Origin: Thioalkalivibrio sp. ALJ21
GTDB lineage: Bacteria > Pseudomonadota > Gammaproteobacteria > Ectothiorhodospirales > Ectothiorhodospiraceae
DNA: 64,000 bases
Assembly: GCF_000378605.1 (NCBI RefSeq)
Contig: NZ_KB905158.1
Coordinates: 1-64,000 of the forward strand
Direction: 5' to 3'
The position numbers and the translations under genes were made by a program. The notes beneath the pieces are model-generated. The model worked only from the letters and a program-made list of their open reading frames with translations, was not told where the DNA came from and did not search any database. This document shows positions 4,808 to 52,178 of the stretch, piece after piece (within the stretch, counting starts at the first letter, position 1; each line of letters starts with the position of its first letter).

Positions 4808-4836
4808 TTGCCTTATCGAGGCCCCTGAATTATCTT
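4808..4836 (+). promoter_or_regulatory. Putative sigma-70 promoter of the REC-REC-GGDEF gene
   Basis: TTGCCT (4808-4813) and TATCTT (4831-4836) are spaced by exactly 17 bp and end 87 bp before the ATG at 4924. Confidence 0.5.
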
Positions 4837-4923
4837 ATATGATCTATTCTGTGCCGCATTTGCGATATGGGTCTTGTTCTCTAAAAGAGCCCGCACAAGC
4901 AATCATCAAAGGGTCGCGCGTTA

Positions 4924-6441
<1,518 letters not shown>

Positions 6442-10623: not shown

Positions 10624-10668
10624 CCCGATCCTCCGGGGCACGATCACGCCGTGTCCGAATGACCCCGC

Positions 10669-34030: not shown

Positions 34031-35557
34031 CTATCCCGCAACCCCTGGGCGGCGTGACAGGGCAGGGGTGATGCTCGTTTCTTTCCACCCATCAAGAGAG
34101 GCATCTCCCACGGCCTCGAGATCTTTCTGCATCTCCGTGTGCTTCGCTTTCTTCTCGAGCTTCTCCATCGCCGTCTCATAGATGTCGTCGATGTCCATGC
34201 CATCAGGGTCGAAGGAAATCACGTTCTCCCAGCACACGCTCATTCCGCGGTCGTGATTTTCCGATTTCCGAAAAGCCTCGCGAATGGAGTCTCCCTCGTT
34301 GACCTGATCCGCCAAGCCCTTGCAGATATTCGCTTCGAGAGGTAGGAACTGCGAGATGTAGTCCCAGCGGGAATCCTCCGCGATTCGCTTCGAGATGGTG
34401 CGCGAGCGGTATTGGGCAACCAGGACCCACTCGTGAAAACGGAGTCCGCGCTGCTGAGGTTGCGGAGCGTTATCCCGCAGGCTCGGAATCGCCTGCCCCT
34501 CCGGCGGCTGGCTACCTGACGGCACTGCGCTCTCCGGCGCAACCGGGCGAGTGAGACCATTGCGCTCACGCCTCTTGTCCTCAAGCGCGGCCACCCATAA
34601 GGCCTCCGGGATCTTGAGCTTCTCGGAGAGCTCTTTAGACAGGTTTGTTTCGATAGGGTGAGGGGAGGGGAGGCGAGAGAGGATGTCCTCGATCTCTCCG
34701 TAGCAGAAGAACCTTCCCTCCGCTGATTTCGTGAGCCCCCTGGCGGCGAAATCCTCGACAAACGCATCGGTCAGCGCCATGACGTTTTCCCGCATAAAGG
34801 CCTCGAACTGCTCTCTTCCTTTTTCGGTAATGAAGTCGTCAGGGTCGCTACCTTCAGGAAACAGAACAAACGCCGCCTCGAAGTCCAGGGCCGGGTCTGA
34901 GAGGATTCCATTGCGGATCTTTCGCATGGCTGCTCGGCCCGGGTTATCGCCGTCCATGGCGAACAGAACGTACCGACCTGCTTCGTTCAGATTCCGAAGA
35001 TTTTCCTCGGTCATCGCAGTGCCCATCGATGCCACGACGTTTGGGATTCCGTACTGCGAGAGCTTGATGACATCCATGTAGCCCTCGACAACGAAGGCCG
35101 GCTCGAGATCGGTTACCACCCCTAGGCGATGCGCGCCGAATAGGATTGATGATTTCTGGAAATGCTCGGACTCTGAGGAGTTCAGGTACTTTGGTCCGGC
35201 CGCATTATCATCGACCGCTCTGCCCCCAAACCCGGCCAGCGTCCCGTCGGCCGCCCGGATTGGGATCATGATTCGGTCCCGGAAGCGGTCAATCACCGCG
35301 CCTCTGTCCGTTTCGATGAGAAGGCCCGCTTCGACCCCCACCTCCTTGTCTAGATCCGTCGCAAGGTAGGCGCTCGATCGCGGGGAGTAGCCAATTTCCC
35401 AGTCCTTGACCGTCTCTTCCGAGAAGCCCCGATCCAGCATATAGCCCAGAGCCTCTTCGGACGCCCAAAAGGCTTCTTGAAAACGCTTGCTCGCCCACTC
35501 CAGAGTGTCGGCGACGTTCGCTTCTGGTTTCTGTTCCTTCTTTCCGAACCCAAACAT
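34031..35557 (-). CDS. DnaG-type primase catalytic protein lacking the zinc finger
   Basis: 508 residues. It begins where DnaG has already passed its zinc finger (KRFQEAFWASEEALGYMLDRGFSEETVKDWEIGYSPRS) and carries the intact RNA-polymerase core: DRFRDRIMIPIRAADGTLAGFGGRA, GPKYLNSSESEHFQKSSILFG, then TOPRIM with Glu158 (VVEGYMDVI) and Asp202-Gly-Asp204. No CHC2 cluster exists upstream in frame. The C-terminal 200 residues could be a helicase-contact domain. The missing finger may be supplied in trans by the product of 50574-52178, which has the finger but a dead TOPRIM. Translation is coupled to the dNMP-kinase-like gene (5-bp gap). Confidence 0.85.
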   Translation of the reverse strand: MFGFGKKEQKPEANVADTLEWASKRFQEAFWASEEALGYMLDRGFSEETVKDWEIGYSPRSSAYLATDLDKEVGVEAGLLIETDRGAVIDRFRDRIMIPIRAADGTLAGFGGRAVDDNAAGPKYLNSSESEHFQKSSILFGAHRLGVVTDLEPAFVVEGYMDVIKLSQYGIPNVVASMGTAMTEENLRNLNEAGRYVLFAMDGDNPGRAAMRKIRNGILSDPALDFEAAFVLFPEGSDPDDFITEKGREQFEAFMRENVMALTDAFVEDFAARGLTKSAEGRFFCYGEIEDILSRLPSPHPIETNLSKELSEKLKIPEALWVAALEDKRRERNGLTRPVAPESAVPSGSQPPEGQAIPSLRDNAPQPQQRGLRFHEWVLVAQYRSRTISKRIAEDSRWDYISQFLPLEANICKGLADQVNEGDSIREAFRKSENHDRGMSVCWENVISFDPDGMDIDDIYETAMEKLEKKAKHTEMQKDLEAVGDASLDGWKETSITPALSRRPGVAG

Positions 35558-35562
35558 ATCGC

Positions 35563-36474
35563 TTACACCGCAACCCTGGGCGCTCGTTGAGGCTCCGATT
35601 GAGATGGGGCAGAGGGGGAGGGCTGGTCAACGTGCGCGGCTTCGGGCACAAGGACCGATCCCAGAATGTTGTACGCCTCGTCCTTGAGAGACGCCAGCGA
35701 TGCATCGTTCCACACCACCAGGTCCCCGTCCTTCTCCTGAATGCCGTCTTCGCTGCAATGGGTGGCACTCTGAGGCGGCAGCTTGCGCCGGCGGGCATTG
35801 GCCTCGGAACGGATGTGAATCAAGGCGCCACCACTTTCACGAACGAGGTCACCTTCGTCCTCGAAGCGGATATCTGAGACCAGCGTCCTGGCTCCTTTCG
35901 GAGCCCTAATAGCCAAGCTTTGAACCCAGACCTTTGGGTTCACCATTCTTTGCCCCCAATCGGTGCCGATAGTCTGCTCCAGCGAGCGCATCGTCCGCCC
36001 TCCAAGCGCTTCGATGGAGGCGTCTTTGATCTCTTCGCGGCGCGCGAGCGAGACCCCAAGAACAGCGCACGAAAGCTTGCGGAGAGGGGCGGCAAACGAG
36101 TCCCAGTGGAAGGCTCCCCCTGATCCTTCCTGGAGAAATCTTGCAAACGTGTCTTTCCCGGCCCCCGCAAAACCCGCAATGCCCACGGATCCGCGGTTAA
36201 GCATCGCTTCCTGTCCGTGCAGATAGAGGGCCTTCCGCGAACCCCAAGGCTCGTCCAGTGGGATTGCCACCGTGGGATGCTGAAGCACGATCGGGAGCCT
36301 CCAGAAACCATGCCCAACGATGGCGCCCCAGTCGTGACGCAAAGATTGGGCGAGATCTGCCGCCGTCCATCCCGGCGCTGCATTAGCGGGCCGCCCAGGA
36401 TGCTGGGCGACATCGAAACCCGAGATGTCTGACACCAAATCAGCGAACGGTTTTGGCAGCTCCACAACACCCAT
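35563..36474 (-). CDS. Deoxynucleoside monophosphate kinase-like protein
   Basis: 303 residues. P-loop GIAGFAGAGKDTFARFL (about 98-114), then RTMRSLEQTIGTDWGQRMVNPKVWVQSL and TLVSDIRFEDEGDLVRESGGALIHIRSE: the sequence pattern of phage-type dNMP kinases (T4 gp1 family), which phosphorylate dTMP, dGMP and hmdCMP. About 95 N-terminal residues are additional and not recognised. The enzyme would supply dNTPs during plasmid replication or transfer. It precedes the primase gene with a 5-bp gap. Phage origin is likely since this family is mainly viral. Confidence 0.78.
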   Translation of the reverse strand: MGVVELPKPFADLVSDISGFDVAQHPGRPANAAPGWTAADLAQSLRHDWGAIVGHGFWRLPIVLQHPTVAIPLDEPWGSRKALYLHGQEAMLNRGSVGIAGFAGAGKDTFARFLQEGSGGAFHWDSFAAPLRKLSCAVLGVSLARREEIKDASIEALGGRTMRSLEQTIGTDWGQRMVNPKVWVQSLAIRAPKGARTLVSDIRFEDEGDLVRESGGALIHIRSEANARRRKLPPQSATHCSEDGIQEKDGDLVVWNDASLASLKDEAYNILGSVLVPEAAHVDQPSPSAPSQSEPQRAPRVAV

Positions 36475-36773
36475 GACTGAACCCTCGTGAATATTGCGCT
36501 GACCATATCACTTTCGACATTCTGTGCAAACTGTTTCCGGAGGAGCAGCGTTCGCAGTGCGACTTGCCGGTCTGGCCGACGGAAGGCTCTCGAGGCCCAC
36601 AGCGGCGCATATCGATCAAGCGTTACCGAATGACGTGCCGCGCCGAACGACGCCCATCATCAGCGCCGTTCGTTCTGTCACGGAACGGGGTACACAGGAA
36701 AGATGAAGCGAATCGAAAGCGCTTCATAGCGCCCTACTTGGGCCCATTCTTCTACTTCTGATAATAGGGGTTA
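36475..36773. other. 299-bp gap between the initiator and dNMP-kinase-like genes
   Basis: No gene. Contains two perfect inverted repeats: ATGAAGCG/CGCTTCAT at 36702-36726 and CTGATAA/TTATCAG at 36757-36776, the latter overlapping the stop codon of the initiator gene. Near the kinase start is the word TCGAAAGTGATATGG (minus strand, 36503-36517). Promoter and control sites are probable; a small antisense RNA is possible. Confidence 0.45.
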
Positions 36774-37706
36774 TCAGCAATTAGAGCCCTCCAGGGCCGC
36801 CTCTTGCTGCTTTCGCTTCTTCCCCGGCCGCACAAACCACAGGGTGTCCGAATCAATACCCCAGTTCTCCACCGCGCCGACCTCGACCAGGCGCTCCATT
36901 GCCTTCTTGGTCTTCGCCTTGAATGCCCGCTTCGACTGCGTTTCCGACCCGCATAGCTCGATGATCTTCCCGATCGAGACGCGATGCGGAACCGGCCGCG
37001 TTACGTGTGACATCACGTACCCGAAGAGCCAGCGCGCCAGGTCGCCCCTCACAGCCAGCCACATAGAGCGTTCATAGCGCGAGAAGCCATCCAGGAACAG
37101 CCTCGCAAGATTTACGTTGAGGTGAAGGTATGTCTCGCCGGTCTCTGCATCCGAGCTGAACTCATGGATCAGGCTACCTTTGTAGGTGGATCGCGGCGTC
37201 TTCACCTTCACCACGCACGCCATCATTCGGTCGATGCTCTCACCGAGCCATTCGTAGTCGGACTGTCCGACGTTCTTGCCAAGCTGTTTCAGGATTCCAT
37301 GAAGACTGCACCGCACCACGTCACCCTCCATCGGAGGCTCGTGATGGTCGGGCTCACGCCCTCCATCATCTTTGGCGGCTTGCTCCTGCAGCTTCCTGTC
37401 ATACCAATGGCTCAGGTTCCCGTATTTCTTCCTGTACAGGTCGACAGCGTGCATCCAGACAAGCAGGTCTGATTGGTCGAGCCGCATACCCGTGTAGCTG
37501 ATCGAGACGCCCTTCCAAGCCGCAATATCGCGGTTCTTGTACATGTCTCGAGCCCCTCGCCCAGCAACCTTGAACAAAGCCGACCTGAGTACGCAGTGCG
37601 GGGCGGCGATCTCGTCCTCCTTCCAGTACGGAATCACCTCCTTCCTGCGTCGCCCGCTCGCCCCGGAATCGATTCCCAGCTCCATCTGCTGCCCGTTGCT
37701 CGCCAT
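36774..37706 (-). CDS. TrfA-like plasmid replication initiator
   Basis: 310 residues. EDEIAAPHCVLRSALFKVAGRG ... WKGVSISYTGMRLDQSDLLVWMHAVDLYRKKYG, VVRCSLHGILKQLGKNVGQSDYEWLGESIDRMMACVVKV, then YERSMWLAVRGDLARWLFGYVMSHVTRPVPHRVSIGKIIELCGSETQSKRAFKAKTKKAMERLVEVGAVENWGI: the two winged-helix domains of TrfA-family initiators in the right order. TrfA binds iterons at oriV and opens the DNA for host DnaB. The iterons are not next to the gene; candidates are the arrays at 13421-13580 and 61166-61505. This is the best single marker that the DNA is a plasmid. Confidence 0.85.
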   Translation of the reverse strand: MASNGQQMELGIDSGASGRRRKEVIPYWKEDEIAAPHCVLRSALFKVAGRGARDMYKNRDIAAWKGVSISYTGMRLDQSDLLVWMHAVDLYRKKYGNLSHWYDRKLQEQAAKDDGGREPDHHEPPMEGDVVRCSLHGILKQLGKNVGQSDYEWLGESIDRMMACVVKVKTPRSTYKGSLIHEFSSDAETGETYLHLNVNLARLFLDGFSRYERSMWLAVRGDLARWLFGYVMSHVTRPVPHRVSIGKIIELCGSETQSKRAFKAKTKKAMERLVEVGAVENWGIDSDTLWFVRPGKKRKQQEAALEGSNC

Positions 37707-37760
37707 AAGCCCTACTCTCCCCCTGGAACATAAGAAGCAAAGGATATCATGAAAGCATTT

Positions 37761-37780
37761 AAGAGATCACTTGCGAACAT
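37761..37780 (-). promoter_or_regulatory. TTCGCAAGTGATC word upstream of the initiator gene
   Basis: In the divergent gap between the TrfA-like gene and the YqaJ-type nuclease gene. Closely related words occur at 36501-36520, 12228-12244, 23618-23637 and 32713-32727. A dispersed regulator-binding site is possible. Confidence 0.3.
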
Positions 37781-37857
37781 CGAAGGCCGGGTGTATATTA
37801 CCCCCTCAATGATCGTATGTAGTCATGTTGTTTCATCTCCTGGATCGGGGGCTAAAG

Positions 37858-39183
37858 ATGGGTTCCACGGCTGAAAGACTGATTGATGCGTTGCCTCAGC
37901 GCCCGCACATCCGCGATGAGGATGTCGCCCGCTGGCTCGACGCTGTTCGTCGCCGGGATCCTGGGCGCGAGGTTTGGCACACGGACCGTCTGTTTGGTAT
38001 TGGCGGCTCCGAAATCGGCAACTTCGTTCTGCACTCGCGAGGCGCCTTCGCGTTCGATCACCCGCGGAACATCATTCAGTCCAAGCTCCTTATGCGGGCG
38101 CCCAGTCCATCGAACCCTGACACGGAGCGCGGGACCGATCTTGAGCCGATCATCGGCAAGAAATTTCTCGAGCTTTCGGGTGGGACTCGGGACACCGAGG
38201 CGCTTCGTCACCTTGAAAACTATGACGGCCCTAAGCGTGCGAGCTGGATGCGGTCCAACCTTGACGACATCGTCGTCATTGACGGCAAGCGCTACATTCC
38301 CGATTACAAGGCTCCCGGGCCCGGCCGCGCTGAGATGTACAAAGAGAAGGGCGCCCCGCTCGATTACTCCTGCCAGCTCCACCAGTACCGGATGTGCTGC
38401 GAAGATGCCGGAATCCCAATCGACGGACTACTTCTCGTCCCTTTCTCTATGAATGAGTGGACCCCTCTTCCGCTCGAGATCGCCCATGACCCGAATCTCG
38501 ATTCCGAAATCGTCGCCGTGGGAGATCACTACTGGAATGAGTGCGTACTGAAAGGCTTCATTCCTCCATACCGGGAGCCCGATGAGGACCCCGACCCCGT
38601 CGAGATCCCCGATGAGCTGCGGGAGCTCGCGGTTCGTTTCGCCCAGGCCCGCGCGCTCGAAGAGGAAGGCAAGGATCGTGCTGCAACGCTGAAAACCAAG
38701 ATGGCGTTCATGGCCGAGCACTACGGGCTCACCCAGCGCCCCCTGACCTCGGTAGGCGTGGCCAACTTCAAGACCGACCTGCGCACAACGATTGACCGGG
38801 ACCGAATCAACGAGCTCCTTAAAGCGCAAGAGGTCGACCCCAAAAAATTCATGAAGGTCGCGCGGAGGGAGTTCGATCATGTCGCCGCGATCGAGGAAAT
38901 CGAGAGGCTTTATCCCGACATCGACTCAGAAGAGCTTGTCTACGAGAAGCCCTCGCTAACGGTTTCGCTGACCCGGAAGAAAAAGGGTGACGAGGCCGAA
39001 ATGCTGGAAATCATTCGATCCGAAGTGCGCTCTGCAGCGTCTTCGGTTCTCTCATCCGACGAGCCCGCTCAGGGCGAGCACGAAGAGGAAGCTGCCCCAA
39101 AAGAAACCGAGACGAAACCGAAAAGCAGTAACGAACCCGTACAACAACGAAGCACCCTTCATCAACTCCGCGGTCGCATCTAA
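37858..39183 (+). CDS. YqaJ/lambda-exonuclease-type recombination nuclease
   Basis: 441 residues from ATG 37858; an in-frame ATG at 37825 would add 11 residues but has no better ribosome site. Nuclease domain about 35-210: LFGIGGSEIGNFV, ERGTDLEPIIGKKF, SWMRSNLDDIVVIDGKRYIPDYKAP (Asp136/137, Asp149-x-Lys151), YSCQLHQYRM, the YqaJ form of the PD-(D/E)xK fold. The long C-terminal part is charged, mostly helical. It should chew double-stranded ends 5' to 3' and hand single strands to an annealing or binding protein, probably the next gene's product 26 bp downstream. Acts in plasmid recombination or repair. Confidence 0.83.
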   Translation: MGSTAERLIDALPQRPHIRDEDVARWLDAVRRRDPGREVWHTDRLFGIGGSEIGNFVLHSRGAFAFDHPRNIIQSKLLMRAPSPSNPDTERGTDLEPIIGKKFLELSGGTRDTEALRHLENYDGPKRASWMRSNLDDIVVIDGKRYIPDYKAPGPGRAEMYKEKGAPLDYSCQLHQYRMCCEDAGIPIDGLLLVPFSMNEWTPLPLEIAHDPNLDSEIVAVGDHYWNECVLKGFIPPYREPDEDPDPVEIPDELRELAVRFAQARALEEEGKDRAATLKTKMAFMAEHYGLTQRPLTSVGVANFKTDLRTTIDRDRINELLKAQEVDPKKFMKVARREFDHVAAIEEIERLYPDIDSEELVYEKPSLTVSLTRKKKGDEAEMLEIIRSEVRSAASSVLSSDEPAQGEHEEEAAPKETETKPKSSNEPVQQRSTLHQLRGRI

Positions 39184-39209
39184 CAACGACCCCTGACGAG
39201 GACGAAATC

Positions 39210-40802
39210 ATGAGTCTTTTTGCGCAGCTCCAAGAGAAAGCCCAATCCGCCAACGCTGAGGGCGGCGGCTCCATGGCCCCCATGGAAAACATTGCAATCG
39301 CAGTTTCCGGGTACGACATGTCGGGGCAGACGCATTACGCGGTCGGCCGGCGCATCGATGATGACGGAAACCCCGACCCGAATTCGCCAGAGATCCGGAT
39401 CAGTCTGCGCGAGGACAAGCAGAAGCGCGCTAACCCCCGGGCCGAGATCGCGGATTTCGCGAACCCTTCCAGCAAGAGCCACACAACGCAGGGCGGCATC
39501 CTGGTCGCCTCGAACTGCTATCCGACCCGGGGCGCAGAGAACACCTACTCCTCCCGCTGGCTGAGGCCGTACGCCCACAACCCGAGCGAGGCGATCGTGC
39601 TTCGACGGCTCACCACCGTTGATGCCTACCAGGGTGTTGACGATAAGAATCAGCCGCGCCAGTTCGTCCGGCTGGTCTCGTTGCGACCCTCGGGCGCTCA
39701 AGCGGTTACCAGCTCCGCAGACCTTCGGGCCAAGCTGCGCGATGCCCTGCAACCCTCCAACCCCGCCATCAATACGCTTGCCGTAGTGCGGGCTGTGGCG
39801 GCCGGCCCTGACGGCACGGACCAGACGTTCGGTGTTGTGGTGGACTCCCACTCCGAGCGCGATCCGTCTACGGGCTACAACCTCACCGCAGACGCAGAGA
39901 AGTCCCTGCAGATGCTCGAATCGAATGGCACCCGTAGCGGCTTCAGGCTCGCGGACTTCGACCAAGTGCTGGGCGATCCAAATCTCAAGATGATGGAAGT
40001 GGTTCCCGGGACCGCAATCTACATGGGCAAGCAGTCGGTGCAGGCGTTCTTTAAGAACCCCAAAACCGTCGATCTGACCAATCAGACTTACCGCGTCCCC
40101 AGTCTCGCGGAAGACGGCGTCGAGCGCGCCTTCATCCCGACTTGGGTTGCTCTGCGCGAGTACCCGCAGCGCGACCCCAATGTGGCGCCCGGTCTCTTTG
40201 TCACCGAGTTCGCACCGGAATTCTCGTTCCCGGATCGCTATCGTCTCCACGATATTCCGACGCCGAACTACTCGAATCCGGCTGCCGCTTTCCCCTCGAA
40301 CCCGCCGAAGAAAGAAGGCACGCAGCATCAGACCCCGATGAATCAGGGTCAGGCTATGCCGCAGCAGCAGAGCCCGATGAACCAGGGTCAGGCCATGCCA
40401 CAGCAGCAGAGCCCGGTGAACCAGGGTCATGCCATGCCGCCGCAGCAGAGCCCGGTGAACCAGGGTCAGGCCATGCCGCAGCAGCAGAACCCGATGAACC
40501 AGGGTCAGGCCATGCCGCAGCAGCAGAACCCGATGAACCAGGGTCAGGCCATGCCGCAGCAGCAGAGCCCGATGAACCAGGGTCAGGCCATGCCGCAGCA
40601 GCAGAACCCGGTGAACCAGGGTCAGGCCATGCCGCAGCAGCAGAACCCGATGAACCAGGGTCAGGCCGTGCCGCCGCCTCACCAAGGGTTCGATCAGACC
40701 CCTCCGCCTCCGATGGACGATCAGGCTGACGGACTTTCCGAGGAAGATGCCGCCTTCTTGGACCAGATGGCTCCCAGCAGCGCATTCCGGCCGCAGGTCT
40801 GA
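39210..40802 (+). CDS. Partner of the exonuclease with 13-residue Gln-rich repeats; possible ssDNA-binding protein
   Basis: 530 residues. The N-terminal 350 residues are a folded, strand-rich domain (ENIAIAVSGYDMSGQTHYAVGRR, EIRISLREDKQKRANPRAEIADF, GGILVASNCY) with no family that I recognise. Residues about 375-490 are nine copies of (S/N/T)P(M/V)NQGQAMPQQQ, then PPPHQGFDQTPPPP and an acidic end SEEDAAFLDQMAP. A folded domain plus a Gln/Gly/Asn/Pro linker plus an acidic tip is the general plan of single-strand-binding proteins, and the gene directly follows a lambda-type exonuclease, so an SSB or annealing role is proposed. It is inference, not homology. Confidence 0.6.
   Translation: MSLFAQLQEKAQSANAEGGGSMAPMENIAIAVSGYDMSGQTHYAVGRRIDDDGNPDPNSPEIRISLREDKQKRANPRAEIADFANPSSKSHTTQGGILVASNCYPTRGAENTYSSRWLRPYAHNPSEAIVLRRLTTVDAYQGVDDKNQPRQFVRLVSLRPSGAQAVTSSADLRAKLRDALQPSNPAINTLAVVRAVAAGPDGTDQTFGVVVDSHSERDPSTGYNLTADAEKSLQMLESNGTRSGFRLADFDQVLGDPNLKMMEVVPGTAIYMGKQSVQAFFKNPKTVDLTNQTYRVPSLAEDGVERAFIPTWVALREYPQRDPNVAPGLFVTEFAPEFSFPDRYRLHDIPTPNYSNPAAAFPSNPPKKEGTQHQTPMNQGQAMPQQQSPMNQGQAMPQQQSPVNQGHAMPPQQSPVNQGQAMPQQQNPMNQGQAMPQQQNPMNQGQAMPQQQSPMNQGQAMPQQQNPVNQGQAMPQQQNPMNQGQAVPPPHQGFDQTPPPPMDDQADGLSEEDAAFLDQMAPSSAFRPQV
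40336..40686 (+). repeat. 39-bp tandem repeat, nine copies, coding the 13-residue linker repeat
   Basis: In-frame units of the type CCGATGAACCAGGGTCAGGC plus 19 further bases, with few differences among the copies, mostly silent or Met/Val and Ser/Asn changes. Copies 3 and 9 are the most altered (Gln to His, Gln to Pro). The near identity of the units suggests recent expansion. Confidence 0.85.
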
Positions 40803-40820
40803 TTTCCACTCGACCCAATC

Positions 40821-40856
40821 AACCCTGCCCCGGTTTCCGGGGTGGGGTTTTTTCCG
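40821..40856 (+). terminator. Rho-independent terminator
   Basis: CCCCGG-TTT-CCGGGG with flanking pairs (AACCC/GGGTT) followed by TTTTTT. It separates the exonuclease operon from the helicase gene that starts 22 bp further on, so the helicase needs read-through or its own promoter. Confidence 0.8.
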
Positions 40857-40877
40857 TTCGGAACCGGAATTCCTGAG

Positions 40878-42425: not shown

Positions 42426-42495
42426 CAGTTCCGCATGCTCTCCGTATGTGATACGTTTCATGCAATTCTTCTGACTGTTTTAGAGGGGCATCAAG

Positions 42496-45400
42496 ATGAA
42501 ATGGATTGATCTCAGCGAACACCAGGCGGCCGTGATACCTCAGCGGCTCCCATCAGGCCTGGTGGTGCTGGTCCTTTGGTCTGGACCCGAGTCTGATACT
42601 CAGCCCGAAGCGATTCGATCGATCGGGTTCCAGCAGCTCCCCTCTGGTATTTGGTTTTCTCGGCGCTGGACAAACCCCGAAGGCGGGCTGAAGCCGCCCA
42701 GAGTGGCCGATTTCTCGCCTGCATTCCCGCGTGCCGCCCTAAAAGAAATGTCGTGGGACCAAGTCACTACCATGCCCTCCTCCCCTCCTTCTGAGCCCAA
42801 TGCCCTCGAGCCCGCTTCGAACGAGGCGCCTAAAACGCCGGCCCAGCAGTTTGCGCCGCTAAACGAGGAGTCCTTCATCGGCATTAACTCGGACGGGGAG
42901 CGCGTCTACGCAGGCGCCGACGCCCGGTTTGTGGTCGCCGCGGATGGGTCGCGCGTGCCAGGCCCCGAGATCGATCCGAACGGCCGCGGCATCGTAGATG
43001 CCCGCTTCCTTCATGCCGGATCCGCGAGACGCATCGATGACTTTGCGCTGCTGTCCTGCGCTCGAGGAGCCCTCCAGAACGCATACCAATCAGGGTCGGA
43101 CCTAGGCAAAGAGCAGATCCGCGAGTTCGCGGACACCGTTCTGACAGGGGTCAATGCCAGGACGTCTATGGGGAAAGGAGCCGTGGCGAAGGCCCATGAG
43201 GCTTTGGTTGTGGCTAACGCTGAATTCGCGAATCGCATGCGCCTAGATGGCCAGTCCGCGATTGGCACCCTGCTTGACGACATGGTGTCGATCGAAGACC
43301 GGATTGCCCCGCTCTCCAGCGAGACTCACACCGACATGCCTCTACCCCTGGCGGCCTGCGCGGGCGACTTGATTCCAACCGCCGACCGCTTGGTTACGGT
43401 TACGCACTCAGTGGGCGCCAATGCGTCGGCCGCCCTACACCCCAGCTCGGAAGTGACGTTCATTGCGGATAAGTCCCGCACGGCCCTTGAGTCGTACGAT
43501 ATCCCGAAGCTGTTCCGGTCGAGCGCGACCATTCGAACGAACCTCGACCTCCGGCATCGCTATACACCCAACAGCACTGACGTGCTCATCGGACACATTC
43601 AGCAGCTTGACAACGCCATCACGGAACTCCCGCCGGTGGATGGTTCCCAGTTCCTCGATACGGCCCTGTGGCAGGCCACGCATGCGCTGCGCACCATAGG
43701 CGACTCCGGGCGCGCGTTCCTGTCCTTCCAGGCGCCGCCGAATGGATTCTCAGAGGCCGCCCTGGACCAGTTTGCTCGATGGGCTTCCACCTATTATCAC
43801 GTCGAGTCTGCGATTGATCTTTCCCCTTCAGCCACCGGGAAGCCATCGGTGGATCCGGCCCGCCAGGTGTTTGCGGTTCTCATCGGCGGCCGAAGAGCAG
43901 CGCCCGACCCAGAAGCATCGCGTGTGGAGATCCAGAAGCTGGAGTCCCTGGACGATCTGGCTGGCTGGGTGACCTCCACTCTCGAAGCCCGAAAATCTCT
44001 CGGTGCCGCCCAGGTGGAATACGAAGGTGAGCGGGTCTCGGAAATTCTGCGGGACCTGCGGAACAAGTCTCAGGCTGCTGAAGCGGCCCACCTGAACGCC
44101 TACCAGGCACGCTACATCCCGCTGACTCGCATAAGCGAAAGCAGCACCATGGTTCCAAAGTTCATGGCGCGCCCCCTGCGGCAGGCCTTTACTCGCCTCT
44201 TACACGAGAAAGGCCCAATCGATCAGTACGTCGGCACTTCTCTAGGGCTCGAAAAGGATGCCCTCTCGGACGGCCGTTACTCCGCCGAGCAGATCGACGC
44301 CCTTGGGCTAATGTTTCGCCGAATGGATCAAGGCAAGCCATTCCTCATTGGCGACCAAACCGGGGTCGGCAAAGGTCGAGAGCTTGCAGCGGGCATTGCC
44401 AAAACGATCCGCGATGGCAACCGCGCCGTATTCTTCTCTGAATCCTCCGCCCTCTTCCAGGACATCTACCGAGACCTGAGCGACATCGGGGCAGCCGATG
44501 GGATACGCATATGGTCGCTCAACGACGACGCCGTGATCCGTGATCCGGCCGACCCAGGCAACATCGTGTACCAATCCGACCCGAAGCAGACCCGGCGTCT
44601 GCTGAAGTCGAATCTTCGCGAAATCGACGAAACTCTCGAGGGCGTGGACCTAGTTCTCTGCACCTACTCGCAGATCAGCCGCCTAGCCCCCGGGGAGAAG
44701 AGGCTCCTGTCTAGCCACAGAAAGAAAGAAGACGGGGCTTGGGTGGATCCGGCCGGCGTCTACTCGCTTGACGACATCCAATCCATGAATCGCGCTGAGA
44801 ACAAAGGCGCCCTTATGACCTGGATTACCAGGGGCGCGAGCATCTTTGCCGACGAGGCCCACAACGCTGCCGGACAAAGCAACACTTTCGAGCGCATGAA
44901 GACCATTATTGAGGGCGCAGGCCCGGTCGTTTTTGCAAGCTCAACCAGCGCATCGGACGCCAAGAACTTCCCTCTGTACGCCGACCTGTTCCCTGGGGAC
45001 ATCAACGACGAGCAGCTCATTGGGACCCTCAAAAAAGGCGGCGCACCACTCGCCGAGGTGGTCTCCCAAATGCTCACCTCGGACGGCGCATACATCCGCA
45101 GGGAGCATGACATTGGGGCCCTCGACGTGGAGCCGATCACCGACCCATCTCGCCATGACCGAAACGTTCGGCTGACCAATGCGTTTGCTAACGTCATCAG
45201 TGAGTTCGGGATGCTCACAAGCGAAATACACCGGACCACATCTGCAGCCAGTCAGCGGCTTCGCCAGAGCAGCAAAGGATCGCCTGGCCCCAAGGCTGGT
45301 CGCGAAATAGGCTTCTCGTCCTCACTCGGCGTTGGGTCGCAGCTCGAGATTATGGGCAGGCACATCCACCTTCTCATGTCGGCAGATAGCGTTGCTGATC

Positions 45401-47856
45401 ACGCGATCGAGGATCTCAAGGCCAATCGAAAGCCAATCATCTTCTTCAACTCCACCTCGGAGGCTCTACTGAAGGCCGTCAAGGATCGCCATGAATCCCT
45501 TGGGCCCGAAGCCGAGACCCCTCTTGAGGCTGCCGGCTACGACATAACTGATGAAGGCATCCCTGCAATCCCCACCATCAGGGATTCTTTCGCCCGCGTG
45601 CTTCAGGGCGTTCTCCGGGTCGACGAACGCGATGAAAACAACAAGGTCCGCAGAACCATGTCGATCGAGGAGCTCGCCCAGGAATACGGGCTGAGCGCAG
45701 GGAAGGTCACGAATCAAATCCAGAGCGTCATCGACGCCATTGACGACCTTGCCAAGCAGGTCCCAGAGGAGGAGCTGCGCCTGGCCCCACTCGACATCAT
45801 TCGCCACCGAATCGCGAAAGCAGGCTTTTCAGTGGCCGAGCTAAGCGGGCGCAAGCATGAGATCCAATTCTCGGGCGAGGACGAGCGGCCCCGCATCGTG
45901 GATCGACCAAACGTCGCGCAGAACGACATCATCCGCGGATTCAACTTCGGCGAGTATGACGCCCTCATCGCAACACGAAGCGGAATGACTGGCATCAGCC
46001 TGCACGCTTCAAGGAAGTTCTCCGACCAGAGGCAGAGGTCTGTCATCAAGACGGAGGCCGAGACACGGCCGGAAAAGATCTTCCAGATGTTCGGTCGAGC
46101 CTATCGTAACGACCAGGTCAACACCCCTCTTCTCAAGACATTCACCACTGGCATGCCTTACGACATACGGCGAACTGCCATTGAGAACAACAAGATCCGG
46201 AGCCTCTCCGCAAACACAACGAGCAACCGCGCCTCGCCAATTCTGCGCGAGACCATTGACATCCTTAACCCCGTTGGTGACCGGGTGTGCGCAAACTGGC
46301 TGCTCAACAATCCCGACATGATCGACCGGCTGTTCATTCGAGAGGACGAGATCACCAACGGACTAAAGGGCGTCGGTGCCAACACCGGCAATTCGCTCTC
46401 GAACAAAGTCACTTCCCGGCTCATGATGCTTCCATATGAAGAGCAGATTGAGACCTATAATCAGCTGGAATACGAATTCCAGTCCCATGTTCGATCACTG
46501 GAGTCTCGAGGCATCAACCCATTCCGGGTAGAGGAAGCCGACCTAAAAGCACGCGAGCTCAGTCGCGAGGTGGTATTGGGTGCAGAACGGACCCACTATG
46601 AGTCCGAGTTCGATCGACCAGTAGAGCTGGTTGAAATCGAATTTGATATCACCGTCAACCCGCTTACTTCAGATCAAGTGGACGACCTTGTGCGTAAGGG
46701 ATCGGATGACATCCTGCATCTTCCTAGGGTCCGCGACGCTATCAAGCGTGGAGCGGCATCGGATGCTGCTATCAGCGCATCCCCGATGGCACCTTACCGA
46801 GCGATCGTCGAAAACAACCGCGAAGACCTCCTCGAAAAAACCCTGAAATGGGAGTTGATGGGGCGTCGGTTCAGCAGACATGGAGGACATGATTCCATTG
46901 AGTCGGCCCTTCAGGATTCAAAAAGCCAGGTTTTTGAACTCAATCAAAGGCTCGATGACCTAGTGGATGCGCTATCCAAAATCCGTATCGGATCGACCAT
47001 CACCAGTCACGACCTCTTTAGGGGAGACCGAGAATCCGTAGTCGTGGCCATCCAGCCCCCTACGCCTGGGTATGAGCATAACGCGAGCCAATATGAGGTC
47101 CACCTCGCCCGGCCAGACGCCAGCTCCGTTACGGCAGTCCCCTTGACCCAGCTCATTCAGTCTGGGGCCCTAGACACCATTTCGGCATCCATCTGGAGCG
47201 ACAATCACCCGCTCCGGTCTACATTTGACTCAGCCAAATCCGGGACCTTTAGCCAGCGCCGATACATGCTTTCAGGAAACCTGTTCTCTGCCGCGAACTG
47301 GGCATCCCAGAAGAATGTCGGAGTCCCCTTCGCCTATACGGACCATACAGGCGTGCGGCATCGGGCCATTTCCCTGAATGAGAAATTCCACCCAGAAATG
47401 ATTCGGTCGACAGACATACCTGTTACCGACGCTGCAAAAGCGATCGACTTCTTTGGAATCTTCCCGAAGTCGTCACTCGAAAACCAGATGGAATACAAAC
47501 CATCAAGCAGCGTGAAATTGCAGTGCAACCAGAGCGCGCCCACCAAATACGCGGTCCCTGGCGAGTACACCCTCCAATTTCCAACAAAAAATCCAAGGCT
47601 CGCAAGACTCGCCGACCACCTCCCCTCCGCTGGAAACACAACGCGCACCATCGTGGGCTTTGATGCCAAGGACATGGGCAATGTTCTGCAGTTTCTAAAG
47701 AGTGCCGGCATTCAGCTACGCACGCCCGCCCGAGAGAGGGCATGGGAATGGTCCCAGGAGTACGATGCGCGCGAACAAATGGGGTCGAAGAAACCCTCTG
47801 ATTCGTTGGAACCGGATGAAACAAAGGGTACACTAATGCACAAGGCAACGGCCTAG
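42496..47856 (+). CDS. Giant strawberry-notch-type SF2 helicase
   Basis: 1786 residues, GAGGGG before the ATG. The helicase core starts with YSAEQIDALGLMFRRMDQGKPFLIGDQTGVGKGRELAAGIAK (Walker A variant near residue 619), a DEAH-type box FADEAHNAAG (about 785), and ends with SGMTGISLHASRKFSDQRQRSVIKTEAETRPEKIFQMFGRAYRNDQVNTPLLKTF (motifs V-VI). This layout is that of SNO/strawberry-notch helicases, also found in the DarB-like antirestriction proteins of phage P1. No methyltransferase motif was seen in the N-terminal 600 residues, unlike P1 DarB. The remaining 550 C-terminal residues are unassigned. On a conjugative plasmid an anti-defence or DNA-entry role is possible. Confidence 0.78.
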   Translation: MKWIDLSEHQAAVIPQRLPSGLVVLVLWSGPESDTQPEAIRSIGFQQLPSGIWFSRRWTNPEGGLKPPRVADFSPAFPRAALKEMSWDQVTTMPSSPPSEPNALEPASNEAPKTPAQQFAPLNEESFIGINSDGERVYAGADARFVVAADGSRVPGPEIDPNGRGIVDARFLHAGSARRIDDFALLSCARGALQNAYQSGSDLGKEQIREFADTVLTGVNARTSMGKGAVAKAHEALVVANAEFANRMRLDGQSAIGTLLDDMVSIEDRIAPLSSETHTDMPLPLAACAGDLIPTADRLVTVTHSVGANASAALHPSSEVTFIADKSRTALESYDIPKLFRSSATIRTNLDLRHRYTPNSTDVLIGHIQQLDNAITELPPVDGSQFLDTALWQATHALRTIGDSGRAFLSFQAPPNGFSEAALDQFARWASTYYHVESAIDLSPSATGKPSVDPARQVFAVLIGGRRAAPDPEASRVEIQKLESLDDLAGWVTSTLEARKSLGAAQVEYEGERVSEILRDLRNKSQAAEAAHLNAYQARYIPLTRISESSTMVPKFMARPLRQAFTRLLHEKGPIDQYVGTSLGLEKDALSDGRYSAEQIDALGLMFRRMDQGKPFLIGDQTGVGKGRELAAGIAKTIRDGNRAVFFSESSALFQDIYRDLSDIGAADGIRIWSLNDDAVIRDPADPGNIVYQSDPKQTRRLLKSNLREIDETLEGVDLVLCTYSQISRLAPGEKRLLSSHRKKEDGAWVDPAGVYSLDDIQSMNRAENKGALMTWITRGASIFADEAHNAAGQSNTFERMKTIIEGAGPVVFASSTSASDAKNFPLYADLFPGDINDEQLIGTLKKGGAPLAEVVSQMLTSDGAYIRREHDIGALDVEPITDPSRHDRNVRLTNAFANVISEFGMLTSEIHRTTSAASQRLRQSSKGSPGPKAGREIGFSSSLGVGSQLEIMGRHIHLLMSADSVADHAIEDLKANRKPIIFFNSTSEALLKAVKDRHESLGPEAETPLEAAGYDITDEGIPAIPTIRDSFARVLQGVLRVDERDENNKVRRTMSIEELAQEYGLSAGKVTNQIQSVIDAIDDLAKQVPEEELRLAPLDIIRHRIAKAGFSVAELSGRKHEIQFSGEDERPRIVDRPNVAQNDIIRGFNFGEYDALIATRSGMTGISLHASRKFSDQRQRSVIKTEAETRPEKIFQMFGRAYRNDQVNTPLLKTFTTGMPYDIRRTAIENNKIRSLSANTTSNRASPILRETIDILNPVGDRVCANWLLNNPDMIDRLFIREDEITNGLKGVGANTGNSLSNKVTSRLMMLPYEEQIETYNQLEYEFQSHVRSLESRGINPFRVEEADLKARELSREVVLGAERTHYESEFDRPVELVEIEFDITVNPLTSDQVDDLVRKGSDDILHLPRVRDAIKRGAASDAAISASPMAPYRAIVENNREDLLEKTLKWELMGRRFSRHGGHDSIESALQDSKSQVFELNQRLDDLVDALSKIRIGSTITSHDLFRGDRESVVVAIQPPTPGYEHNASQYEVHLARPDASSVTAVPLTQLIQSGALDTISASIWSDNHPLRSTFDSAKSGTFSQRRYMLSGNLFSAANWASQKNVGVPFAYTDHTGVRHRAISLNEKFHPEMIRSTDIPVTDAAKAIDFFGIFPKSSLENQMEYKPSSSVKLQCNQSAPTKYAVPGEYTLQFPTKNPRLARLADHLPSAGNTTRTIVGFDAKDMGNVLQFLKSAGIQLRTPARERAWEWSQEYDAREQMGSKKPSDSLEPDETKGTLMHKATA

Positions 47857-47882
47857 CCCACACGAAACCTCAGAGGGGAGAA

Positions 47883-48398
47883 ATGAACAATAGCGACCAC
47901 GCGAAGAACCCTCCACGTCCCTTTAAGACAGGGGATGTCGTAGCGCTTCGAGACATCCCTCCGGGAGAGGATCAGCCACGAGATCTCGCTTGCTACGTCC
48001 CTGATGGCCGCAGCGCGGTAATGGTTCTAGTGGATGACCCTTACACCATTTTCCGCCTGGACCGGGAAAAGCTAGCTGAGCTGAGACCCCTCGCAAGGGA
48101 TGCCACCTTTGGCCCTGAGAACGCCGATCAGATTTCCGGCGTCCTTAGCGAGCGAGCGCGAGACACCGAGGTAGAGGTCGTGTCCGGGAAGTTCCGGTCT
48201 GGCGCCTACGCAATCGCCTTTCGAAAGGGGCTGGACACGCCTGTAGACGAGAAGATCTTTGCGATCGCTCACGGGCCCGAGGCGCAGCAGGCATTGGTTG
48301 AGGCCGCAGAAGGCCACAATCACTCCCTGCGATCTGCGGTCGCGAGCTCCCCGGATCGCGCGCCCTCCACTCCCCGGCCTCGCTCCCCGGGAATGTAG
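47883..48398 (+). CDS. Hypothetical protein following the SNO helicase
   Basis: 171 residues with GAGGGGAG upstream, 26 bp after the helicase stop. The N-terminal third (FKTGDVVALRDIPPGEDQPRDLACYVPDGRSAVMVLVDDPYTIFRLDREKLAEL) reads like a small beta-barrel; the C-terminus is disordered and ends RPRSPGM. No family recognised. Probably co-transcribed with the helicase and perhaps a small partner of it. Confidence 0.55.
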   Translation: MNNSDHAKNPPRPFKTGDVVALRDIPPGEDQPRDLACYVPDGRSAVMVLVDDPYTIFRLDREKLAELRPLARDATFGPENADQISGVLSERARDTEVEVVSGKFRSGAYAIAFRKGLDTPVDEKIFAIAHGPEAQQALVEAAEGHNHSLRSAVASSPDRAPSTPRPRSPGM

Positions 48399-48479
48399 AT
48401 CGCGCCCTTCTTGTTGGCCCTGGATGTGTGAATTAACGGGAGCGCACGAGAGCACCCCGTGCGCCCTCAAAGGCTATCT

Positions 48480-50558
48480 ATGAACCTGCTTATCGTTGAG
48501 AGTCCCAGCAAATGCAAAACCATTGAGGGGTACCTCGGCCCCGGCTGGGTCGTCGCTGCTAGCTACGGTCACATCCGGGATCTCCCCGAGAAAGAGATTG
48601 GGGTGGCGCCCCCCGATTTTCGCCCCAAATACGAAATTCCCGACCGCTCCAAAAAGGCGGTCTCTAAGCTCCGCTCCCTCGCCAAGAAAGCCGACAAGAT
48701 TTTCCTCGCGACTGACCCCGATCGAGAAGGCGAAGCCATTTCGTGGCATTTGGCGGCGGTTCTCGGCGTCTCGAAAGACCCACGAGTAAGCCGGATCTCT
48801 TTCAACTCCATTACACCGGAGGCCGTGAAGTCGGCAGTCAGCAACCCTGGCCGAATCGATACGCACCTGGTTGCGGCGCAAGAGTGCCGGCGGGTGCTTG
48901 ATCGACTGATCGGATACATGGTTTCCCCGGACCTTGCCCGGGCGCTCGCCGCAAAGGCTTCAGCCGGGCGAGTCCAGACTCCAGCCCTGCGCCTAGTAGT
49001 AGACCGACAAAATGAGATCGACGCGTTCGTCCCTACTGATCACTTCCTCGCTCGGCTCGGATTCCCTGGCGGGTGGTCAGCAACCTGGGTTGCTGCCGAT
49101 CACTGCGAGGGTGACCCGCCCTACTGCCTAGAGCGCGGACTTGCTGAACAGGCGGCGGGCACGCCCCAGGTTCGAGTGGCCACCTATGAAGAGGGCACTC
49201 AATCGCGCAACCCCAGTCCCGCGTTCACGACCTCATCTCTCCAGCAGGCTGCCAGTTCCAAGCTCAAGATCCCACCGAAGCGGGCCATGGACCTAGCGCA
49301 GAAGCTCTACGAGAAAGGTCTGATCTCGTACCATCGAACCGACTCCAAGAACCTCAGTGATGAGAGCGTCCAGGCTCTTCGGGCCTACCTTTCGTCAAAA
49401 GGTATCGAGCTGCCTGAGAAGCCGAATCGCTGGAAAGAAGCCTCCGGATCCCAGGAGGCGCACGAATCGATCCACCCTACGCGCTACGAGCTAGAGAAAA
49501 TCCCCGACTGCGATGACCCCGATCTCCAGCGGCTCTACGACCTGATCCATGCCAGGGCCCGCGCCTCTCAGATGCTCCCGGCCAGATACAACGCCAAGGT
49601 GGCGATTCTGGAGTCGACCCAAGCAGACTCTGGCGGCCGAATTCACCGATTCCGCGCAAAGGGACGCGTACTGAAGTCGCCGGGCTGGCTAGCCGCATGG
49701 AATCCAGATGAAGAAGCCGAGGAGGAAGTTGACCCGGATGACGATCCCGATGCCGACAACCCGATTCCTCGCCTAGCCAATGGGTCGGTGATTTCTGTCG
49801 AGCAGGGCCAGGTCGTTTCCAAAACGACAAAGGCCCCACCCCTCTATACAGAGGCTTCTCTAGTGCGGGCACTGGAGCGTCGGAATATCGGACGACCCTC
49901 CACCTATGCCTCAATCCTGGACCTCAATCAGCGTCGCGGTTACTGGTCCGTTTCGAAAGGCAAAATCCACCCGGAGCCGATTGGCCACTCGATCATTAAC
50001 GCGCTCCGCCCGCACTTCCAGTTCGTTGACCTGGCCTTCACCGCGGACCTCGAGGCCCAGCTGGACCGGGTAGCCAAAGGTGAAGCCCAGTTTGGTCCAC
50101 TGGTTAAGCTCGCGTACGAGATGCTCTCCAAAGAGACCGAGAACCTGAGGGCAAGCAATCCGGAGGCTCCCAAAGGGGCTGGCAACGAAGAGGCCCATGC
50201 TGATTGCCCGAAATGCGGCCGTGCAATGCGTCGCCTCCCTTCCAAGAAAAAGAGCGGCTCATTTTGGTGGTCGTGCTCAGGTTTCCGCGAAGACCCCAAA
50301 TGCGACTTCAAGGCGCCCGACCTCAAAGGCGCCAAGCCACCCAAGCCTGACCTGGAAGCTGCGAGCAACAGCGAGCGCAGCACGAGTGACACATCCGCAG
50401 CCCCGCCCTGCCCCAACTGCAACGAAGACCACGGCGGCCTCCTGCTGCAGCGAAAGGGGAAGTACGGGGTCTTTTATGGGTGCAACCGATATCCCGAATG
50501 CAAGACCACCGTGCAGGCCGACAAGAAAACGGGCGAGCCCGCCCTAGAGAGCGCCTAG
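48480..50558 (+). CDS. topA: DNA topoisomerase I (type IA)
   Basis: 692 residues from ATG 48480; a GTG seven codons upstream is less likely. TOPRIM: LLIVESPSKCKTIEGYLG and ATDPDREGEAISWHL. Catalytic Tyr284 in LISYHRTDS. LVRALERRNIGRPSTYASIL is the conserved domain I segment. Two C-terminal zinc ribbons (CPKCGR ... SCSGFREDPKC; CPNCNED ... YGCNRYPEC). Shorter than chromosomal TopA (865 aa). It would relax negative supercoils during plasmid replication or transfer. Directly followed (15 bp) by the CHC2 protein, consistent with a replication operon. Confidence 0.93.
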   Translation: MNLLIVESPSKCKTIEGYLGPGWVVAASYGHIRDLPEKEIGVAPPDFRPKYEIPDRSKKAVSKLRSLAKKADKIFLATDPDREGEAISWHLAAVLGVSKDPRVSRISFNSITPEAVKSAVSNPGRIDTHLVAAQECRRVLDRLIGYMVSPDLARALAAKASAGRVQTPALRLVVDRQNEIDAFVPTDHFLARLGFPGGWSATWVAADHCEGDPPYCLERGLAEQAAGTPQVRVATYEEGTQSRNPSPAFTTSSLQQAASSKLKIPPKRAMDLAQKLYEKGLISYHRTDSKNLSDESVQALRAYLSSKGIELPEKPNRWKEASGSQEAHESIHPTRYELEKIPDCDDPDLQRLYDLIHARARASQMLPARYNAKVAILESTQADSGGRIHRFRAKGRVLKSPGWLAAWNPDEEAEEEVDPDDDPDADNPIPRLANGSVISVEQGQVVSKTTKAPPLYTEASLVRALERRNIGRPSTYASILDLNQRRGYWSVSKGKIHPEPIGHSIINALRPHFQFVDLAFTADLEAQLDRVAKGEAQFGPLVKLAYEMLSKETENLRASNPEAPKGAGNEEAHADCPKCGRAMRRLPSKKKSGSFWWSCSGFREDPKCDFKAPDLKGAKPPKPDLEAASNSERSTSDTSAAPPCPNCNEDHGGLLLQRKGKYGVFYGCNRYPECKTTVQADKKTGEPALESA

Positions 50559-50573
50559 GAAGACACTGGAACC

Positions 50574-52178
50574 ATGAAAATCCCACAGGACTTCGTCGAC
50601 CGCCTTCGATCCGATGTACCGATCGAAGATGTGATCGGTCGGCATGTGAAGCTCAAAAAAAGCGGAAAGGAATTTCAGGCGCTTTGCCCTTTCCACACTG
50701 AAAAGAGCCCCTCTTTCTCGGTCGTGCCCTCCAAAGGGTTTTACCACTGCTTCGGGTGCGCCGAGCACGGCGACTCCATCAGCTTCATCATGAAATTCTC
50801 GCAAGTCGACTTTCGTACCGCGGTTGAGGAAGTTGCGGCAGTCGGCGGGCTCACCATTCCAGAGCCAACCCCGGACGCCACCAGCGCTTCGATCGCCAAG
50901 AAAAGTGCTGAAAGCAAGAAGAACGCTGACCGGAAATCGGGGCTCATCTCGAACGCCCTCTCCGTCTTTCAGGGAACCTGGAAGAACCTGCCGGAAAAGA
51001 CGCGCCGATCGATCACCTCAGGCAATGATGAATTCTTTTCCAATGAGATCGGGATTGGATGGGCAGACGGGGCCGGCTCCACGTCCGTGATCGATCTCAT
51101 TGCCGAGTCCCCAAACGATCTGGAACTGCTGCGCCAGGCGGGACTTGCCGAATATTCGGCAGCTGACGGGCGCTATCGCGATGCCATCAACAATGCCCTC
51201 ATTCTTCCTGCCGCCGATAGCGCCGGGAAGCTCCGGGGCATCTATTCGATCCCAGCGAAAGGCGCCCGAGTATTCCGGGGAGCGCGTCAGGTGAACTGGC
51301 ATGGAACCGGACGCCCCACCTGGGTGGGTGAGCCGCAACGGATCCAGTCACAGTCGTCCAAGAGCGACGGCCCCCAGTACCAAGGGGGCGACCGACTTTG
51401 GATTACAGATTCCATCACGATCTACGGGCAAGCGTTGAATGCGAGCATCCGGAACATCGTGTACGTCCCGAAGCCCGAAGGATTCGAGGCCGACCCAATG
51501 CTGCAGCGCCTCCAAAGGGTTTCCGAGAACCAAGTGATCCTGACGCACAATGAATCCCTTCTGGCGCCCTCCAAGAACCCCTTGCTGACGGCTGTCGCGC
51601 GGGTCAGCGATCCGAGCGTGAAATACGCGGTTGTCCCCCACTTTGCGATCCCGCAAGCCGCGAAAGCACCCCCTGAGGCGCTACCTGGATACATTGAACA
51701 GGTCGTGACGGGCCTCCAGATTTACGCTTGCCCAGAATGCTCGGGCGGGAAGGAGAGGTTCCTGGAGCAAGCAAGGCCCTGGGTTGAGGAGATCCGCCAC
51801 CCTATTTATCGATCCATGGCGCAGGAATCGATTGAGAAAGAGGCCGCACAAATCCACGAGGCTTCACTTTCAGTGGGATCCAGCAGCAAGGCATTCATCT
51901 CAACCCCAGAGGCCATCAGCGAGGATATGAAAGACCTGATCGCCGAGGCCGTTGAGAAGCGAGGTCGGATTTCTCGGCCCATGCCTCCTCACCTGCAGGG
52001 CCAACCGGGACACAATCTCCTCTTTCGCCTCACCAACGAACAGGCGCCTGACGTCACGCATGCTGAGCTTGCGGCAGCGAAGCTTATCCTTGATGACGTG
52101 AATGCCGCTAAGCGGGCCCCATCACTCGCCAGCGAAGACCAGGCGGAGCCGGCACCCCATAAAACAAGAACCCCCTAG
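50574..52178 (+). CDS. CHC2 zinc-finger, DnaG-like protein with degenerate TOPRIM
   Basis: 534 residues. Residues 1-95 are a perfect DnaG zinc-binding domain: Cys38-x2-His41-x17-Cys59-x2-Cys62, with FQALCPFHTEKSPSFSVVPSKGFYHCFGC. Beyond a charged linker (100-125) the order of the DnaG core is still visible (NEIGIGWADG, GRYRDAINNALILPAADSAGKLRGIYSI), but the TOPRIM acids are lost: Asp279 replaces Glu, and Asn326-Glu-Ser328 sits where Asp-Gly-Asp should be. It therefore should not make primers itself, but can provide the template-recognising finger to the finger-less primase at 34031-35557. The last 150 residues are unassigned. An intact split primase is the simplest reading. Confidence 0.8.
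   Translation: MKIPQDFVDRLRSDVPIEDVIGRHVKLKKSGKEFQALCPFHTEKSPSFSVVPSKGFYHCFGCAEHGDSISFIMKFSQVDFRTAVEEVAAVGGLTIPEPTPDATSASIAKKSAESKKNADRKSGLISNALSVFQGTWKNLPEKTRRSITSGNDEFFSNEIGIGWADGAGSTSVIDLIAESPNDLELLRQAGLAEYSAADGRYRDAINNALILPAADSAGKLRGIYSIPAKGARVFRGARQVNWHGTGRPTWVGEPQRIQSQSSKSDGPQYQGGDRLWITDSITIYGQALNASIRNIVYVPKPEGFEADPMLQRLQRVSENQVILTHNESLLAPSKNPLLTAVARVSDPSVKYAVVPHFAIPQAAKAPPEALPGYIEQVVTGLQIYACPECSGGKERFLEQARPWVEEIRHPIYRSMAQESIEKEAAQIHEASLSVGSSSKAFISTPEAISEDMKDLIAEAVEKRGRISRPMPPHLQGQPGHNLLFRLTNEQAPDVTHAELAAAKLILDDVNAAKRAPSLASEDQAEPAPHKTRTP

Follow-up and report, generated by a model that had tools for sequence, protein, structure and literature searches.

How might a replicon prime its DNA when a DnaG-type zinc finger and a DnaG-type catalytic core lie in two separate genes? 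This question is raised by the window analyzed here, a 64,000-nucleotide stretch of Thioalkalivibrio sp. ALJ21 (NZ_KB905158.1, positions 1 to 64,000) that makes up the first 64 kb of a contig of 289,720 bases (contig C4). DnaG is normally a single chain that combines a CHC2 finger, a core of DNAG_N and TOPRIM domains, and a helicase-binding domain. In the window, the finger is found in one protein, P0001, and an intact core in another, P0002. Judging from their domains and motifs and from the recurrence of the pair on other plasmids, we consider it probable that P0001 and P0002 form a two-subunit primase of the DnaG type whose finger acts in trans. The features concerned are the following (aa, amino acids).

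50574..52178, plus strand: P0001, 534 aa, zinc finger and DnaG-like core without catalytic motifs
50583..50861, plus strand: CHC2 zinc finger of P0001, ligands C38, H41, C59 and C62
51396..51599, plus strand: putative relic TOPRIM region of P0001 (aa 275-342), EGxxD and DxD absent (models, hhalign, motif test)
34031..35557, minus strand: P0002, 508 aa, DnaG-type catalytic core without finger, with a helical C-terminal tail
35126..35461, minus strand: DNAG_N domain of P0002 (Pfam)
34829..35095, minus strand: intact TOPRIM domain of P0002 (aa 155-243), with Glu158, Asp202, Asp204, Asp238 and Asp240

Two proteins with complementary parts of DnaG

A first-pass annotation of this DNA had read 34031-35557 as an intact DnaG core (Glu158, Asp202/Asp204) devoid of a CHC2 finger. 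Pfam and alignment confirm this, and the coordinates hold; the minus strand had gone unstated. Pfam finds DNAG_N (E-value (E) 4e-30) and Toprim_2 (E 2e-16) in P0002 and no CHC2 match, and in the alignment Glu158, Asp202, Asp204, Asp238 and Asp240 occupy the corresponding DnaG columns, so that all TOPRIM acids are present. A finger hidden upstream was considered and rejected, as only 23 in-frame codons separate the preceding stop from the ATG. In the AlphaFold2 (AF2) model the core lies mostly above 90 in the predicted local distance difference test (pLDDT), and the top PDB match is a P. aeruginosa DnaG domain (5vaz, E 1.4e-25, template modelling score (TM) 0.89 by target). P0002 aligns over 7-300 with the NCBIfam dnaG model TIGR01391 at 217.5 bits, under its curated cut-off of 283.6. 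The C-terminus, where a helicase-binding domain was looked for, is modelled as helices at low pLDDT and has no Pfam match. The idea that P0002 is a recent copy of the host DnaG was also rejected: the two are 30% identical and group apart in the best tree, where the P0002 branch is long.

The same annotation had described 50574-52178 as an intact CHC2 finger attached to a DnaG-like core, and both parts were borne out. The finger matches CHC2 in Pfam with E 1.9e-35. Pfam gives no match to DNAG_N or to the TOPRIM families in P0001, and DnaB_bind, the helicase-binding family, appears only below threshold (E 0.17). TIGR01391 aligns with residues 3-220 at 145 bits, under the same cut-off. When a profile of seven finger proteins with the finger removed was compared by hhalign with a profile of 11 DnaG cores, the two aligned over 238 columns spanning DNAG_N and TOPRIM, with a probability of 95% and E 2.9e-8. 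By this profile comparison, the part of P0001 that follows the finger is a diverged homologue of DnaG cores. Chance as the source of the DnaG matches in either protein is rejected by the Pfam, NCBIfam and hhalign E-values.

Single-chain structure predictions, which had been proposed as a check, were run for both proteins. The AF2 model of P0001, from a 45-row alignment, has a mean pLDDT of 73.8, with the finger at about 97-98 and the TOPRIM region at about 60; the order of strands and helices in that region resembles the TOPRIM domain of P0002. The top PDB match of the model is the finger and core of the Aquifex primase (2au3, E 1.6e-13, root-mean-square deviation 20.8). This likeness to DnaG is not independent evidence, because the alignment behind the model was built from DnaG relatives.

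Genome-wide, CHC2 has two matches, the complete DnaG on contig C2 and P0001, and DNAG_N also has two, the same complete DnaG and P0002. The P0001 and P0002 genes share contig C4. Among the 369 genomes searched with the post-finger part of P0001, its own genome gave the sole match. Whole P0001 matched 40 of the 47 genomes of its order, once per genome outside its own, in frames 325 to 723 aa long that presumably are host DnaG. A profile of the seven post-finger tails matched one of 394 genomes, that of S. inventionis, which is itself a row of the profile.

Catalytic residues are lost from finger proteins and kept in cores

Asp279 of P0001 faces the TOPRIM glutamate in the hhalign profile alignment, in a further alignment and with MAFFT '--add', as had been claimed. 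The other replaced acids of the claim, Asn326 and Ser328, are less sure. Two alignments, one of them MAFFT '--add', put His325 and Glu327 at the DxD position; in the hhalign alignment His325 stands immediately ahead of Asp202 and a gap follows, and Asn326/Ser328 results if the alignment is carried on without that gap. MAFFT '--addfragments' aligns P0001 quite differently around DxD. With '--add', every one of the seven finger proteins lacks at least one of the acids.

In a motif test, the seven finger proteins have CHC2 in 7/7, EGxxD in 0/7 and DxD[AP]G in 0/7, and P0001 is without EGxxD, DxD and DPD. Five fingerless cores (four from split records, one from pRK1-4) give the mirror pattern, with EGxxD and DxD[AP]G in all five and CHC2 in none. 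The 32 loci classed as fused in this test are no control, because possession of all motifs was the criterion for choosing them and some are repeats. EGxxD, DxDxxG, DPD and FGGR are all absent as well from the finger proteins of pKD01 and pVb2289-tet (frames of 522 and 498 residues). Their fingers lie above the Pfam cut-off (E 4e-24 and 3e-15); the strict CHC2 pattern misses them because their ligand spacing departs from C-x2-H...C-x2-C. Among the nine finger proteins now known (window, pMAH4, p292, pTUMSAT, pVb2289-tet, pKD01 and three from Shewanella), blastp links only the three of Shewanella with one another and that of p292 with that of V. nigripulchritudo. The finger has thus been retained while the remainder of these proteins has strongly diverged.

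The pair recurs on related plasmids

Relatives of the replicon were found through its strawberry-notch helicase and DotL, and then through the primase parts. The resulting 28 plasmid records, picked by similarity and hence a non-random set, were all searched with PF01807; 18 were also searched with PF08275 and the remaining 10 with Toprim_2 only. A finger protein with a dead core together with a separate fingerless core is present in 6 of the 28 records, from Aeromonas and Vibrio: pMAH4, pAC1520, p292, pTUMSAT-V.nig1-2, pVb2289-tet and pL291, where the finger was located by family search alone. The cores of pMAH4 and pAC1520 are 99.7% identical and those of pVb2289-tet and pL291 share one protein accession, so that the six records stand for four plasmid types. 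A second V. nigripulchritudo record, NZ_AP024090, has both genes by tblastn and stands outside the 28 family-searched records. The co-occurrence asked about by the first-pass annotation is therefore mostly favourable, with the pair on four plasmid types besides the window.

One further record, Alteromonas pKD01, combines a finger/dead-core protein with a core that has a weak finger of its own. This core keeps EGYMD, DADNAG and DPD; its N-terminal finger match has E 7.7e-6, just below the cut-off, and both C-x2-H and C-x2-C are there. Complementary loss would be expected to pass through a state such as that of pKD01. This plasmid, more distantly related, also has finger and core joined, which is relevant to the first-pass annotation's condition on a finger fused to the core in close relatives.

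The other records show a range of arrangements. Finger and core stand in one frame in six (S. maltophilia, pBVIE03, two Variovorax plasmids, Geobacter pSD and Thalassospira), the Thalassospira frame being small and its TOPRIM match under the cut-off. Sphingopyxis has a core and a weak CHC2 match in a separate frame of 296 residues. The two Bosea plasmids, L113 and L114, have a partial CHC2-like finger in frames of 189 and 236 residues and no Toprim_2 match. CHC2 is absent in five further records, distinct from the core-only ones; for one of these, pND6-2, Toprim_2 matches weakly within a frame that resembles a topoisomerase. Among the six records in which the helicase spans 80% or more of that of the window, the primase is split in three, finger only in two and small and fused in one. 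The closeness of pVb2289-tet to the window extends to homologues of DotA, DotB, DotC, DotL, ParM, the helicase, TopA, VWA and AAA. In p292, the annotation gives the strawberry-notch gene as two pieces on either side of an IS66-type element (L096:7986-15967).

A scan of genome contigs for the helicase gave 54 loci, several of them short, with a DnaG-like gene by tblastn in one (L081). A Reinekea contig with a helicase relative (L142, G415:C53) encodes a second, fused DnaG-like protein in a frame of 563 residues, and the genome has a complete DnaG elsewhere. Scans of viral contigs with the single sequences of P0001 or P0002 found no relative. At 26 viral loci a finger is present and a match to the core profile absent, many of them having another TOPRIM-like motif.

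A possible mechanism and origin

We propose that P0002 would be the RNA-polymerase core, with its DNAG_N and TOPRIM domains and its metal-binding acids intact, and that P0001 would present a template-reading CHC2 finger on a former primase core stripped of catalytic motifs. Docked in trans on the P0002 core, this finger would contribute template binding and the choice of start site during priming of plasmid DNA, either in vegetative replication or after conjugation. In B. subtilis DnaG, the polymerase domain alone made no stable complex with single-stranded DNA (ssDNA), and binding was likewise absent for the isolated finger (PMC5429622). A fingerless core is therefore expected to be weak alone. 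The complementary motifs, the recurrence of the pair, the retention of the finger despite divergence elsewhere and the intermediate-like pKD01 together make such a two-subunit primase the reading we would back, with reasonable though far from full confidence.

The pair may have arisen by gene duplication followed by complementary loss, as the first-pass annotation had suggested; the distribution of motifs and pKD01 fit this, and the trees leave a single origin undecided. These trees exclude pKD01 and pVb2289-tet. On the best tree the four split cores are placed as two pairs: that of the window joins pMAH4 with support 84/2, both on long branches, and those of p292 and V. nigripulchritudo join with support 100/99. 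A single origin of the split is thus neither shown nor rejected by the phylogenies.

Gene neighborhoods offer a further view of this history. On three Vibrio plasmids (p292, pTUMSAT-V.nig1-2 and pVb2289-tet), a DotA match is found at most ~5 kb from the finger gene, and a VWA match either adjoins the core gene or lies at most ~5 kb away from it. The window has the reverse arrangement: DotA is 1.4 kb from the core gene, and 35 bases separate the finger gene from VWA. On pMAH4, AAA and VWA matches lie at a distance of 12-14 kb from the core, DotA being outside the stretches examined, and in the two Shewanella plasmids the finger gene (at 127 and 160 kb) is near neither DotA nor VWA. The mirror swap could result from gene moves, or from opposite losses after one duplication. 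It is conceivable, and we put it forward tentatively as doubtful, that a plasmid primase was duplicated early, with copies near DotA/DotL and near VWA/AAA, and that finger and catalysis were then divided in opposite directions; this history would imply at least two mirror-image origins of a heteromeric DnaG and would place pKD01 near the intermediate.

Counter-evidence and alternative explanations

A number of observations speak against a dedicated two-subunit primase or against parts of the evidence for it. Compared alone with the core profile by hhalign, P0001 reaches a probability of 53% (E 1e-4) over 89 columns, and its relic TOPRIM region is modelled at pLDDT ~60 from an alignment of DnaG relatives that favors that very fold. 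The finger protein of pMAH4 has one DPD (DPD in 1/7 finger proteins), and '--addfragments' brings all its acids into register by means of gaps. The finger and core genes are non-adjacent in the window and in all six split records. One clade of the four cores is not shown, and not rejected either (approximately unbiased test, p-AU 0.074; long branches); the seven fingers, over 100 columns, fall in three places, and one clade is again not rejected (p-AU 0.063). Nor is co-occurrence strict. A finger/dead-core protein without a further DNAG_N match is found in two of the 28 records, from Shewanella xiamenensis and S. aestuarii, and a third finger-only case is the S. inventionis draft genome, where the host DnaG is the sole other DNAG_N match. 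Conversely, a fingerless core without a CHC2 match occurs in five records: pRK1-4, pF007, S. frequens, pPME5 and Pigmentibacter, where the core sits within a frame of 2,525 residues. The Shewanella finger-only and the core-only cases mean that the partnership is not strict, and therefore keep two alternatives alive.

The core-only records are what one would expect if P0002 were a self-sufficient plasmid primase, or if it borrowed the finger of the host DnaG, of which a complete copy is present in the host; P0001 would then be an unrelated DNA-binding accessory. We regard this as unlikely, since self-sufficiency leaves unexplained the finger/dead-core companion in the window and on four other plasmid types. 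The three Shewanella elements point elsewhere: because no second core was found there, their finger protein must act alone or with host proteins. P0001 might accordingly act on the host replisome, as a dead primase whose finger docks on host DnaG or helicase and so recruits or restrains host priming for the plasmid, with P0002 acting separately. To this we grant a small chance, as it does not account for the fingerless cores that accompany the finger protein elsewhere. Finally, the loss of catalytic motifs from the P0001 core and its high divergence could be the marks of a functionless, decaying copy of DnaG. Such decay is very improbable in view of the long open frames and recognizable finger of nine distinct finger proteins, most of which are beyond the reach of blastp outside the finger.

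Genomic setting

The genes that surround the pair, or serve as backbone markers, are these (T4SS, type IV secretion system).

30047..32608, plus strand: DotA/TraY-like T4SS gene (tblastn with the annotated S. aestuarii DotA/TraY, 27%, E 1e-64)
35563..36474, minus strand: deoxynucleotide monophosphate kinase-like gene (Pfam DNMK E 2e-15), 5 bases upstream of the P0002 gene
42496..47856, plus strand: strawberry-notch-type helicase (Pfam AAA_34 and Helicase_C_4), the backbone gene used to find relatives
48459..50558, plus strand: type IA topoisomerase (Pfam Topoisom_bac E 5e-93), 15 bases upstream of P0001
52214..53929, minus strand: VWA/metallopeptidase-like gene (DUF2201), 35 bases from the P0001 gene

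The first-pass annotation had the finger gene riding with topoisomerase I. This is true of the window, with its gap of 15 bases, and of the window alone among seven replicons with both genes located: in the six plasmids (W01, W02, W03, W07, W25 and W27), topA and the finger gene are over 20 kb apart.

Contig C4 carries homologues of DotI, DotH, DotG and DotA, a DotL/IcmO-like gene, a DotC-like gene (Pfam T4SS_TraI), a DotB-like ATPase (Pfam T2SSE), and ParM-like and TrfA/RepC-like genes. Its ends are identical over 80 bases (window 1-80 and 289641-289720), which suggests a circle. From its gene content and matching ends, contig C4 is probably a large Dot/Icm-type plasmid. Elsewhere in the window we noted two tyrosine-recombinase-type integrase genes on the minus strand, at 14040-15062 (under the Pfam cut-off) and 61565-62770, and, reading the translations by eye, type IV minor-pilin-like genes at 884-4117. 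Outside the window, at 236371-240255 of contig C4, lies a 21-gene tRNA array on the minus strand.

Relation to known primases

P0001 and P0002 resemble DnaG in that finger and core match DnaG families and solved DnaG structures; they differ from it in that finger and active core are in two proteins, the finger protein bearing a core without catalytic motifs. A finger acting in trans between primase subunits, copies of one full-length protein, was reportedly described by Corn et al. in 2005; the mechanism proposed here is the same, between two gene products.

In group 2 jumbo phages, the DnaG-like primase tends to be accompanied by a standalone zinc ribbon of the primase type (PMC7824862). The two systems have in common that finger and TOPRIM core are in separate genes of one replicon, whereas P0001 keeps a long dead DnaG-like core and is found on Dot/Icm-type plasmids. 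The viral contig L317 in our data likewise has a CHC2 finger frame (4587-5213, 209 aa) and a DnaG core frame (9995-10639, 215 aa) as separate genes, and its finger frame gave no match to the core profile. TraC1 and SogL are stand-alone TOPRIM primases of conjugative elements (PMC5512222, in part). P0002 is like them a DnaG-like TOPRIM primase of a mobile element, some of which are encoded alone; the excerpts of that paper at hand mention no zinc-finger partner for them, unlike the case here, where P0001 is present. Literature searches over titles and abstract openings found no earlier report of a finger/core pair on plasmids. Within the sources covered to this extent, a split DnaG had already been reported in jumbo phages, and what appears new is the dead core in the finger partner and the recurrence of the pair on Dot/Icm-type plasmids.

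Plasmids that apparently depend on a finger supplied in trans would make the trans mechanism of DnaG directly testable. The pair would present template reading and catalysis already separated by nature, and it would exemplify how a replication enzyme can become a heteromer through gene duplication and complementary loss.

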